22,950 bases of DNA from a virus. Shown in pieces: positions 5,349 to 22,950 of the stretch (within the stretch, counting starts at the first letter, position 1; every line of letters starts with the position of its first letter). Below the pieces are notes generated by a model. It did no database searches and was not told the origin of the DNA. It saw only the letters and a program-made list of their open reading frames with translations. Position numbers and translations under genes: made by a program. The stretch lies in IMG/VR virus record IMGVR_UViG_3300046454_000244, positions 1 through 22,950 of that record; one strand, 5' to 3'.

Positions 5349-5524
5349 CTAACCATGATTCCCCCGAGGTAAGGCTCATTAACGCATGGCTTGACAACAT
5401 GACAAGCCGGCAAAGGTGGGCAGCATTCGCTAGATATTGGTGGCAATGGGTATGGCATGGCCGGCGTGGTGCAGACGTATGGCTACTCACTACCGCAGTA
5501 GATAGCGGGTTGAATAAGCAATGA
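5345..5524 (+). CDS. small Trp-rich unknown protein
   Basis: ATG 5345 overlaps the preceding stop (ATGA), and its own stop overlaps the ATG at 5521. The 59-aa product has nine Trp, most in RWAAFARYWWQWVWHGRRGADVW (residues 24-46), so it may be amphipathic or membrane-associated. The chain of 4-base overlaps supports translation. The base composition becomes clearly more AT-rich from here, unlike the upstream genes. Function unknown. Confidence 0.5.
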   Translation: MTNHDSPEVRLINAWLDNMTSRQRWAAFARYWWQWVWHGRRGADVWLLTTAVDSGLNKQ

Positions 5525-5643
5525 CTAATGCAGTAATAGTATTGGGCATTGCGGTATTCATGTTGGCAATAGCTACCATTGTTAATAGCCTAACGATCAT
5601 GGTACATATGCGAACGCATAAGCGTAACGATCATGGAACATAA
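5521..5643 (+). CDS. 40-aa single-pass membrane protein candidate
   Basis: ATG 5521 overlaps the previous stop (ATGA) and the frame ends at TAA 5641-5643. Residues 4-29 are a continuous hydrophobic helix (AVIVLGIAVFMLAIATIV and on), followed by a short basic tail with MRTHKRNDHG. A role in superinfection exclusion or membrane association is possible. Its last 16 codons contain the first two GATCAT elements of the downstream array, so the ORF end may be dictated by that array, or the ORF may be chance. Confidence 0.4.
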   Translation: MTNAVIVLGIAVFMLAIATIVNSLTIMVHMRTHKRNDHGT

Positions 5644-5720
5644 ACACAAACGATCATGAAAGAATAGCGACCAAGATCAAAAAAGAATTCACAAAGATGA
5701 TCATGTAAAAGTGTGATAGT

Positions 5721-5746
5721 AAAGCGTGATATGGGTCACGTTTTTT
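5721..5746 (+). terminator. intrinsic terminator of the early operon
   Basis: AAAGCGTGA (5721-5729) pairs with TCACG and the following Ts (5736-5744), giving a 9-bp stem with one G-U pair and a 6-nt loop. A TTTTTT run (5741-5746) follows directly. This is the only U-tailed terminator I see in the window. It lies between rightward early genes and the leftward cassette, inside the GATCAT array. Confidence 0.7.
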
Positions 5747-5824
5747 CTCAGGGCCTAGGCCGGCAGAGCCGGTATCCTCTCCGTTTATCTACGGCCAGCG
5801 CCGACCCCCGTGTGACCTATTTCA

Positions 5825-5866
5825 CATTCTTTCATGATCATCTATTTGCATTCTTTCATGATCATC
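5825..5866. repeat. 18-bp perfect direct repeat, period 24
   Basis: CATTCTTTCATGATCATC occurs at 5825-5842 and again at 5849-5866. A third copy lacking one T and ending GATCGT is at 5905-5920, and an inverted copy (ACGATCATGAAAGAAT) is at 5651-5666. So the recognition unit is longer than GATCAT: an ATTCTTTC arm plus the core. Inverted placement on the two sides of the terminator is notable. Confidence 0.75.
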
Positions 5867-5938
5867 CCGGTAATTGAATTGGTATTAACGGTGATCATCT
5901 TCTGCATTCTTCATGATCGTTTGTGTGATCATCTTCCC

Positions 5939-6145
5939 TCATTCTCGGTGATCATCATCTATCCCCCATCCGTGCCATTCCCGGCGTAATCGCATTTCAT
6001 TTCCGTCTAATTCGGGATGCGCTAATAGTGTCGTGGCGGCCGCTTCAATTGCGACCGGCCATGATGCGCCGCGCATATAGGCAACCTCACTGAGATATTG
6101 CCGGCGGGTTATCCGTTCGTTTAGCCATTCGTTGTCACGTGTCAT
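5939..6145 (-). CDS. 68-aa unknown protein, leftward cassette
   Basis: The chosen start (ATG at 6145-6143) overlaps the upstream gene's stop by 4 bp. The product looks all-helical: DNEWLNERITRRQYLSEVAYMRG, then SWPVAIEAAATTLLAHPEL, with an acidic C-terminus (GIDDDHRE). The longer frame up to 6382 is the shadow of the zinc-ribbon gene. No family recognised. As the partner of a ribbon-helix-helix protein it could be a toxin, an accessory binder or a host-takeover protein; nothing in the sequence decides. Its 3' end reaches the last GATCAT element. Confidence 0.55.
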   Translation of the reverse strand: MTRDNEWLNERITRRQYLSEVAYMRGASWPVAIEAAATTLLAHPELDGNEMRLRREWHGWGIDDDHRE

Positions 6146-19943: not shown

Positions 19944-21137
19944 ATGGCGAACATTTCCGAAATTACAGGCAAGCGCGGCACGACATATCGGGTTAACTAT
20001 GCGAGCGCGACCAAGCCGCAAAATTCCCGGACGTTCAAATCCGAGCGGCTAGCCAATCAGTACAAAAATTGGCGCGAACTAGAACCGGGCGCCGACGACA
20101 CGGCGTTTGATTTGAAATACGGCGCCGGTGTCGCGCCGGTGGCGCCGAGCTCGGCGAAACCGAAAGCGCCGACATTGGGCGAATTCTGGCCGCACGTGCA
20201 AGCCGGCGACGGGCACGGCGCTAACCGCTCGCAAGCATCCGACTCGGTTGTTCGTAATATGCTCGCTCATTTCCATGACCGACCGCTAGACGCCGTGACG
20301 ACGCTAGAGGTTAAGAAATGGGTTGTGCGTATGTTGAAATTGCCGCGCGAGAATGGCAAGCCGTACGCGCCGCGTAGCGTTGACGACGCAATAGCCGAGT
20401 TGCGCCGGATTTACCGCGCCGCCGTGTATGCCGGCCACGTGAAAGCCGACGCAAACCCGACGCTTAGCCGGCCCGGCCAACGGGTCGGCGTGCCGAAAGG
20501 CTACCGGGTTCGGCGCAAGATTAGCGACGCCGACGTTTACACGGTTGCCGAGCTCGACGCCATTCTTAAATGCGTGCCGCGCCGTTGGCTTGCGTTTTAC
20601 ACGGTTGCGGCCGACACGGGCGCCCGTACCGAGGAAATCGTCGGTCTGGCCGCTCGGCATTTCAATTTCGCCTCGGAATACCCGCTAACGCTCGGCTTAC
20701 AGGTTGCCGAGGAACAACGCTCGCCGGAATTCAAAATTGTCCTACGCGATTTCGCCAAAACAGAATCGTCGGATGACCGGGAAACATGGCTACGGTCGGC
20801 CACTATTGACGCCGTGCGCGACTACATGGCCGAATACCCGGCGGACGGCGAGACGCTATTTCGTACCGAGTCGGGCGCCATTCCCAACCAAGCCAATTTG
20901 CGCCGCATTTGGCGCGGCGCGTGCGAGGCGGCCGGCGTCCGGTATTTGCCGCCGCGCAACCTACGGCATACGGCCGCGTCTCATATGCTCGCCGCCACGC
21001 TAGACGTTGTGGAGGTAGCGCACCGACTCGGGCACAAAGACCCAAGCGTCACGCTCGGCACCTATGCGCGTTTCATGCCGCGCGCTCGCACAACGGCACC
21101 GGCCAAAATGGAGGAATGGCGGGACGGGCAGAAATGA
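19944..21137 (+). CDS. int: tyrosine integrase
   Basis: ATG 19944 lies 1 nt after the previous stop. The 397-aa product has an N-terminal arm-binding-like region (1-65), a SAM-like core-binding domain (about 75-180), and a C-terminal catalytic domain. The catalytic set is R228 (DTGARTEE), K272 (FAKTESS), R341 (NLRHT), H364 (RLGHKD) and the nucleophile Y374 (GTYARF). At the box II position that usually holds His three residues before R341 there is R338, a mild departure. It should recombine the tRNA-Val core at 19483-19532 with the host copy. Confidence 0.95.
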   Translation: MANISEITGKRGTTYRVNYASATKPQNSRTFKSERLANQYKNWRELEPGADDTAFDLKYGAGVAPVAPSSAKPKAPTLGEFWPHVQAGDGHGANRSQASDSVVRNMLAHFHDRPLDAVTTLEVKKWVVRMLKLPRENGKPYAPRSVDDAIAELRRIYRAAVYAGHVKADANPTLSRPGQRVGVPKGYRVRRKISDADVYTVAELDAILKCVPRRWLAFYTVAADTGARTEEIVGLAARHFNFASEYPLTLGLQVAEEQRSPEFKIVLRDFAKTESSDDRETWLRSATIDAVRDYMAEYPADGETLFRTESGAIPNQANLRRIWRGACEAAGVRYLPPRNLRHTAASHMLAATLDVVEVAHRLGHKDPSVTLGTYARFMPRARTTAPAKMEEWRDGQK

Positions 21138-21599: not shown

Positions 21600-22487
21600 A
21601 TGCGCGTTACCGAAACACGAATCACGCCACGGCAGGCGCGTGATTGGCTAGAGCGCTCGGCGCAAATCAAACAACGCCACCTAAGCCGAGCTCGCATAGA
21701 GCGTTACGCCGACGATATGACCGCCGGCCGGTTTGAACTCACGCACCAACCTATAGCGATTGACCCTAACGGCTTGGTTTTCGACGGCCAACATAGGCTA
21801 AGCGCTATAGTGCTATCTAAAACGACCGTGACGCTTATGGTCGCCTATGACGCCGACCCGACAACGTTTGGCAAAATTGACTTGGGCATGCCGCGCACGC
21901 CGGGCGCTATCCTCGCGCTCGCCGGCTATACAGACGGCGCCGCGCTCGCCGCGTCGGCACGTTTGCTCATTGCCTACGACCGCATGACCCAAGACGGCAT
22001 GCCGCCGGGCACGGCGCTACGGCGCGTGACGGCGGCCGAAATTCAAACGCTAGTCGAGAGCGAGCGCGGCCAGCGCTTGGATTTGGCGCGGCACCCGGCC
22101 GCGCGGATATCGAAAGCAATCGGCCGGCAAGGCGTACGCACGCCAATGGGTACGTGCATTGTCATTATCAATGAGTCGCGCGTCGGCTCATCTACCCGCG
22201 CCGATTTCTTCGAACGCCTTGCAGACGGCGCCATGCTCGCGCCGCTCTCACCCGTTCTCGCTTTCCGCCGTTGGGTCGGTGGCGATTCCGGTTTCATTTC
22301 CCTACCGTCTCAAGAAAGGTCGGTGCATTTCGTCGCCAATTGCATAAAGACTTTCAACGATTGGATTAACGGCCGAGACCGAAAAACGGTAACATGGCGG
22401 CCGTCCACAAATGAGCCCATGCCCATTATCAAACGCGAAAGGAACGCGCACGATGACCCTAAAGACGATTCACTCGACGCTATGTGA
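21600..22487 (+). CDS. ParB-like nuclease-domain protein
   Basis: ATG 21600 follows GAGAGGA (21585-21591); an earlier GTG at 21555 would only add repeat-coded residues. The 295-aa product has TRITPRQARDWLERSAQ at its start, then RARIERYADDMTAGRFELTHQPIAID and DGQHRLSAIV (about 62-71), the ParB/Sulfiredoxin-like signature with conserved Gln-His-Arg. The middle helices and FISLPSQERSVHFVANCIKTFNDW agree with the actinophage version. These proteins are thought to bind or cut DNA; the biological role in phage is uncertain. It may regulate or protect the genome. It is first in its operon and overlaps the Lsr2-like gene by 35 bp. Confidence 0.82.
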   Translation: MRVTETRITPRQARDWLERSAQIKQRHLSRARIERYADDMTAGRFELTHQPIAIDPNGLVFDGQHRLSAIVLSKTTVTLMVAYDADPTTFGKIDLGMPRTPGAILALAGYTDGAALAASARLLIAYDRMTQDGMPPGTALRRVTAAEIQTLVESERGQRLDLARHPAARISKAIGRQGVRTPMGTCIVIINESRVGSSTRADFFERLADGAMLAPLSPVLAFRRWVGGDSGFISLPSQERSVHFVANCIKTFNDWINGRDRKTVTWRPSTNEPMPIIKRERNAHDDPKDDSLDAM

Positions 22488-22950
22488 TTTCCATTTGGAG
22501 GACGGAACCGAAATCGACGCGCCGCCCGAGTATCACCTCACGCTCTCGGCCAACGGCACGACCCGGGAGCTCGATTTGTGCGAGACGTGCTCGGCGCAAC
22601 TATCGACCGTGCTTAACCATGCGCTTGCGGTCGGTACCGCACCGGCCGTGAATGGCGAGAAAACGGATAAGCGCAACCTAGGCGCCGCTCGGGATTTTGA
22701 ATGCCCGGTCTGCCACCAATGGTATATCTCGCGTAACTCGCTCAATGTTCACGCGCGCACGGCGCACGACTTGGCCGGCGCCGAATGGGCCGAGCTCAAC
22801 CCGTACGCGCCCAAGCGCAAGGCGCCGGCGGCGCCCGAGGAACCGTGCCCGGTGTGCGGCTACATGGCGGCCAGTAATGCCGGCATGGCCGCACACAAAC
22901 GGATTAAGCACCCGGCGCCGGCGCCGGCCCCGCGGCGCGGCCGGCCGCGC
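22453..22950 (+). CDS. Lsr2-like protein with two C2H2 fingers and AT-hook tail (cut by the contig end, continues at 1-171)
   Basis: ATG 22453 lies 10 nt after AGGA. Closed through the join it gives 173 aa. Residues 1-60 follow the Lsr2 dimerisation pattern (TLCDFHLEDGTEIDA, YHLTLSANGTTRELDL, a helix SAQLSTVLNHAL), with C11, H14, C43 and C46 placed to bind zinc. Then come two fingers of spacing C-x2-C-x12-H-x4-H (C84/C87/H100/H105 and C132/C135/H148/H153) and the AT-hook RRGRPRK. Lsr2 proteins silence AT-rich foreign DNA. This architecture replaces the usual Lsr2 DNA-binding domain by fingers and hook, so it is likely a phage nucleoid or anti-silencing factor. Confidence 0.72.
   Translation, partial: MTLKTIHSTLCDFHLEDGTEIDAPPEYHLTLSANGTTRELDLCETCSAQLSTVLNHALAVGTAPAVNGEKTDKRNLGAARDFECPVCHQWYISRNSLNVHARTAHDLAGAEWAELNPYAPKRKAPAAPEEPCPVCGYMAASNAGMAAHKRIKHPAPAPAPRRGRPR
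22804..22950. repeat. terminal direct repeat, right copy
   Basis: Same sequence as 1-147 except CC for AA at 22930-22931, which changes Lys160 to Pro just before the AT-hook. The 19 bases after the mismatch match again, so the difference is internal to the repeat and not end decay. Confidence 0.9.

Follow-up and report, generated by a model that had tools for sequence, protein, structure and literature searches.

Our results indicate that a small actinobacteriophage encodes a protein in which an Lsr2-type dimerisation domain is joined to two C2H2 zinc fingers and a basic, AT-hook-like tail. In actinobacteria and in their phages, Lsr2 (PF11774 plus PF23359) serves as the xenogeneic silencer. 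The Lsr2-type identity of the N-terminus, which is too divergent for Pfam, is confirmed by sequence profiles and a structure model. Judging from this same material, we favour, on balance, the view that the protein is a self-associating, silencer-like phage DNA-binding regulator of low specificity, in which a zinc-stabilised Lsr2-type domain would be combined with the fingers and the hook-like tail.

The phage genome and the gene across its ends

The window, meaning the whole stretch of DNA analysed, is IMG/VR record IMGVR_UViG_3300046454_000244 (22,950 nt), a small actinobacteriophage genome. This assignment follows from the tblastn matches listed for the terminase, which are actinophages only, and from a phage gene set that includes integrase, excisionase-like, Cas4-type exonuclease, RecT, RusA and HNH genes. 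The ends overlap by 147 bp, positions 1-147 repeating 22804-22950 with two mismatches, so that the closed genome is probably 22,803 bp long and the gene under study spans the join. Once closed, its open reading frame runs from 22453 through the end to 171 and comprises 173 aa; 22453-22950 alone encodes residues 1-166. The mismatches (AA at 127-128, CC at 22930-22931) make residue 160, the first Lys of the tail, a Pro in one of the two end copies. The features are as follows.

19950-21137, + strand: phage integrase
21597-22487, + strand: ParB-like (DGQHRL) protein, phrog_5931, the upstream neighbour, overlapping the start of the gene by 35 nt
22438-22444, + strand: ribosome-binding site AAAGGAA, upstream of the ATG (direct reading)
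22453-22950, + strand: first 166 codons of the gene, the remainder lying in the end overlap
22453-22644, + strand: Lsr2-type dimerisation domain, residues 1-64 (model, profiles)
22483-22494, + strand: putative zinc-ligand pair 1, C11-x2-H14 (direct reading; kept in relatives)
22579-22590, + strand: putative zinc-ligand pair 2, C43-x2-C46 (direct reading; kept in relatives)
22696-22767, + strand: C2H2 finger 1, residues 82-105 (Pfam; pLDDT about 92)
22846-22911, + strand: C2H2 finger 2, residues 132-153, with a second copy at 43-108 (Pfam; pLDDT about 91)
1-171, + strand: second copy of the overlap, followed by the actual 3' end and stop codon of the gene (overlap comparison)
127-156, + strand: AT-hook-like tail KRRGRPRKAE, residues 160-169 (PF02178 below cut-off)
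413-634, + strand: excisionase/HTH-like gene downstream, whose product ends in an AT-hook-like RRRGRPRK

Domains of the phage protein

The N-terminus is tied to Lsr2 by four lines of evidence: an AlphaFold2 model, a profile built from relatives, a profile-profile score set against shuffles, and a Pfam match in a protein of the same architecture. Residues 1-166 were modelled from a 17-row alignment that held no classical Lsr2. The model contains the Lsr2 dimerisation fold of two strands and a helix (strands 27-33 and 36-42, helix 44-61), with low confidence in the first 10 residues, which are equivalent to the Lsr2 oligomerisation strand. Foldseek matches it to 4E1P, the dimerisation domain of Mycobacterium tuberculosis Lsr2, with probability 1.00, a target TM of 0.73-0.75 and an rmsd of 1.9-2.0 Å over 56 columns; the E-value of 0.13 is not significant, as is usual at about 55 residues. 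In VIA-align, 4E1P is also the top row, with Z 6.3 for 55 aligned residues, compared with 4.1 for the row below it. The strand pair that the sequence-only reading had made decisive is thus present in the model, in which the fingers also fold.

For the N-terminus, direct family searches gave little. PF11774 has no match in the protein at E-values up to 10 in a Pfam scan, and the PHROGs matches are weak (phrog_4061 at 0.0028, an Lsr2-like family at 0.16), as are the tblastn matches, which lead to Streptomyces phage proteins adjoining an immunity repressor and to a Gordonia phage Lsr2. The Streptomyces phage proteins carry CD...DLC-x2-H where ours has CD...DLC-x2-C. Profile A4, consisting of these relatives and the phage protein and including one Lsr2 row, was searched in 396 genomes of the phylum and retrieved Lsr2 proteins together with McsA-like zinc domains and short proteins that combine the N-domain with an AT-hook-like tail. 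Profile A5, built from six fusion proteins with no Lsr2 row and searched in 395 Actinomycetes genomes, retrieves full Lsr2 proteins at E-values of 1e-8 to 1e-6. Among its best matches are nine that Pfam calls as two-domain Lsr2 (PF11774, 2e-17 to 8e-21; PF23359, 1e-12 to 4e-17). When a nine-sequence N-domain alignment was compared by hhalign with six classical Lsr2 proteins lacking the ligands, the score was 37.2, against 8.8 ± 2.0 for column shuffles (maximum 15.3, n = 200). The phage sequence alone scored 17.9 against classical Lsr2 (shuffle maximum 16.3) and 50.3 against the other fusions. Finally, L097, a viral fusion protein with the same architecture, matches PF11774 at 5.5e-6 with 26.3 bits, below the curated cut-off of 29.6. 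Taken together, the model, the profiles and the relatives bear out the Lsr2-type N-terminus that had been read from the sequence alone.

The Cys/His ligands noticed in that reading are likewise present, as C11, H14, C43 and C46. They have the layout of a treble clef, with one pair after the first strand and the other at the start of the helix, and each of the nine fusion proteins retains the four-ligand set; the search pattern contained C43 and the fourth ligand, but not the first pair. From the sequence, the N-domain probably holds a zinc ion.

The C-terminal DNA-binding domain of Lsr2 with its RGR hook (PF23359) has no match in the phage protein, and the fingers occupy its place. Both have the spacing C-x2-C-x12-H-x4-H (residues 84-105 and 132-153), within the C-x2-C-x12-H-x3-5-H of C2H2 fingers; they lie above the Pfam cut-off (PF13894, E 1.5e-7; PF00096, 2.5e-6) and are modelled confidently by AlphaFold2 (pLDDT about 90). 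Two fingers are not expected from composition, since only 3 of 20,000 residue shuffles of the protein yield two. The gap between them is 26 residues. By direct reading, the positions that commonly read bases are Ser, Asn, Ser and Val in finger 1 and Ser, Ala, Gly and Ala in finger 2; the aromatic residue usual at the core position is missing from finger 2. The spacing and the small recognition residues would suit low DNA specificity. The tail has a GRP core with basic flanks, and scores 14.1 bits against PF02178, short of the cut-off of 17.4. Hence, of the proposal that two fingers and an AT-hook replace the Lsr2 DNA-binding domain, the replacement and the fingers stand, but the hook is weak.

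Fusion relatives and ligand-bearing bacterial proteins

Far from being an isolated case, the fusion recurs in a further eight viral contigs (L073, L075, L080, L082, L090, L092, L093 and L097). Viral contigs were scanned with a pattern of DLC-x2-[CH] and a C2H2 finger after it, which imposes the second ligand pair and the spacing of one finger. Independent of the pattern are the helix, the first ligand pair and its position close to the N-terminal end, and, in L080, L092 and L097, the second finger. L097 shares the layout of the phage protein with its two C2H2 fingers. In L075 and L082 the finger is recognised by spacing alone, with no good Pfam match. Of the 13 stop-free matches of the first viral pattern scan, six have no N-terminal ligands and were set aside as chance matches.

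Close relatives of the phage protein were found neither in INPHARED (megablast, and tblastn at 0.01) nor by peptide-pattern scans of IMG/VR and GTDB genomes; relatives came only through weak tblastn matches and degenerate DNA patterns. For a locus search, the N-domain family aligned as a whole proved too divergent. Two fusion relatives used as tblastn queries in INPHARED gave no match at 0.001. In 395 Actinomycetes genomes the fusion pattern had three matches, none of them a fusion; the pattern was codon-restricted and the sample small, so that absence is not implied. No description of an Lsr2 domain with C2H2 fingers was found in the literature searched, most subscription journals lying outside reach. 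The fusion proteins thus appear to be a small, undescribed family, and their sequences suggest that they are probably DNA-binding regulators.

The ligands had been taken as an addition made by the phage, a view that does not hold, given that bacterial Lsr2 proteins carry them too. All four are present in nine bacterial Lsr2 proteins and three in one, L039 being included with CDLH...LCRKH and both Lsr2 domains. The ligand positions correspond to D11, D14, S37 and N40 of M. tuberculosis Lsr2. In the nine Lsr2 proteins retrieved with A5, the first pair reads CD[LV]H in eight and CDLE in one, and the second is C-x2-H in all. The ligand-bearing bacterial set, mostly CDLH...LCxxH, comprises L039, L107, L115, L116, L117 and L120-L124. 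From their sequences these proteins apparently bind zinc, of which we found no account in the literature. A study of 2016 classed Lsr2 (4E1P) as a treble clef without zinc (PMC4999995), and both the fold of our N-domain and the ligand-bearing bacterial proteins agree with that proposal.

Other bacterial proteins carry the zinc-type N-domain in different settings. L034-L038, L040-L042, L048 and L050 are short proteins consisting only of a zinc-type Lsr2-like N-domain and a basic tail, often with RRGRPRK repeats resembling AT-hooks. In L111, L125 and L126, from Actinomycetes, the N-domain is followed by a C-terminal domain that resembles the DNA-binding domain of Lsr2 but lacks the RGR motif; L111 matches no Pfam family at 0.01.

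The gene lies among the integrase, the ParB-like gene and the excisionase-like gene. In L093 and L097 an HTH gene is found nearby, together with a phage integrase in the former and a recombinase in the latter. In all, two of the eight further contigs have the fusion beside confirmed recombinase genes; a neighbour in L080 looks integrase-like by eye, with no family confirmed. With the immunity repressor beside the Streptomyces phage relatives, this arrangement is compatible with a role in regulating early or lysogenic genes. The next gene in L021, the one related contig reached through the ParB-like neighbour, is not of the fusion family.

A small Cys-rich protein (CRxxGHxW...RCxxC) is encoded directly upstream of the fusion gene in three contigs (L097:3265-3606, L080:1151-1501, L093:2373-2765), and a similar one is found upstream in L073:6106-6435. 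The two that were scanned belong to phrog_4480. It is possibly a partner of the fusion protein, and was not seen in the 22,950-nt window.

Within the window, 5592-5955 is 58% AT, against 39% overall, and lies within the AT-richest part of the phage; it is a plausible candidate target of the protein. The AT-richest stretch, 5451-5950 (57-59% versus 39%), is located between the early genes and the terminase.

Function and relation to known silencers

From the computed N-domain fold, ligand set, finger fold, recurrence and, in some contigs, adjacency to recombinase genes, we infer zinc binding, dimerisation, DNA binding and bridging or coating of low specificity. The zinc-stabilised treble-clef domain of Lsr2 type would mediate self-association, and the two separate fingers and the AT-hook-like tail would contact DNA in place of the Lsr2 DNA-binding domain. 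The protein could then bridge or coat DNA with little regard to sequence, and in this way set the expression of early or lysogenic phage genes. Phage Lsr2 has been tied to the upkeep of lysogeny (PMC8612146). Ten residues are conserved in Lsr2, and the dimer contains a salt bridge between Asp28 and Arg45 (PMC3374832). Of the ten positions, five are identical in the phage protein (D12, D35, L36, L44, L48), two change conservatively to Leu (F25, I34) and three are altered (D11C, Y32R, W51A). By alignment, the salt bridge is lost, D28/R45 being replaced by N34/S51 in the phage protein, Met/Ala in L097 and Asn/Thr in L093. In the light of the model self-association is likely, but these changes mean that it is not assured.

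The same substitutions bear on the proposal that the protein enters host Lsr2 filaments through its Lsr2-type domain and, by means of its different DNA-binding parts, disrupts or redirects the silencing of incoming phage. This finds support in the Lsr2 fold of the model and in the knowledge that truncated H-NS variants and foreign silencers disturb filaments (PMC8612146), but the replacement of D28/R45, in L093 and L097 as in our protein, weakly suggests that the protein is less likely to mix with host Lsr2 at the known interface, and we regard such counter-silencing as rather doubtful. It also seems unlikely that the N-terminus is a plain McsA/ClpG-like treble clef, a generic zinc adaptor that binds proteins or RNA and is unrelated to silencing. 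McsA and ClpG zinc domains share its fold and the spacing of its ligand pairs, hhalign scores the N-domain alignment against McsA-like domains at 36.8, equal to Lsr2, NCBIfam reports a weak McsA match, and the ClpG zinc domain came third in Foldseek for the N-domain modelled alone, at lower confidence. However, 4E1P was first in that search, and the McsA match extends over fewer columns, 38, mostly near the cysteines, whereas the Lsr2 match spans the domain in full, with both the first strand and the helix end included. The basic tail and two C2H2 fingers also suggest DNA. In McsA and ClpG the zinc domain is joined to other partners (UVR motif, ATPase).

We give little credence to a sequence-specific repressor or Cro/Xis-like accessory factor, i.e. 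a dimer reading a defined operator through its fingers within the integration module. The gene does lie between integrase and excisionase-like genes, and no repressor family was found among the scanned part of the contig's other proteins, but the small, uncharged residues at the recognition positions, the long linker between the fingers and the missing aromatic core position of finger 2, all by direct reading, argue against defined operator recognition.

The favoured reading, a silencer-like regulator of low specificity, can be set beside several known systems. The phage protein resembles Lsr2 in its N-terminal dimerisation fold and, for some bacterial members, in a Cys/His set at the same positions, but where Lsr2 has its DNA-binding domain, the phage protein has the two C2H2 fingers and the hook-like tail. 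The proteins of phrog_4061, found in Streptomyces phages of camvirus type beside the immunity repressor, have the same N-domain with LDLC-x2-H and a basic tail, but they lack fingers, their second ligand is mostly Asp and their tail has a conserved LEEIEAMK. The Ku-Lsr2 fusions of cluster J mycobacteriophages are also phage fusions with one half of Lsr2 (PMC8612146), yet they keep the DNA-binding half and our protein the dimerisation half. In alphaproteobacteria, Ros/MucR proteins share the layout of an oligomerising N-domain and a zinc finger, with H-NS-like function (PMC9779718), and MucR demonstrates that this combination can silence AT-rich DNA as a xenogeneic silencer (PMC8857273, PMC9779718). 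MucR differs in having one larger zinc-finger domain and another N-domain; Ros/MucR is absent from the Pfam matches of the phage protein, no sequence relation was found, and the resemblance in layout is convergent.

It is possible, although we hold this only tentatively, that a phage family has rebuilt a xenogeneic silencer from actinobacterial parts, equipping a zinc-bearing Lsr2 scaffold with eukaryote-like C2H2 fingers in a MucR-like, convergent arrangement, and that the zinc form is the ancestral Lsr2. The four-ligand bacterial proteins lend support, at the level of sequence, to a descent of Lsr2 from a zinc-binding treble clef. If the inferred function is true, these phages have swapped the DNA-reading half of a silencer and kept the assembly half, which would allow a direct comparison of the two, assembly and DNA reading, as the determinant of silencing.
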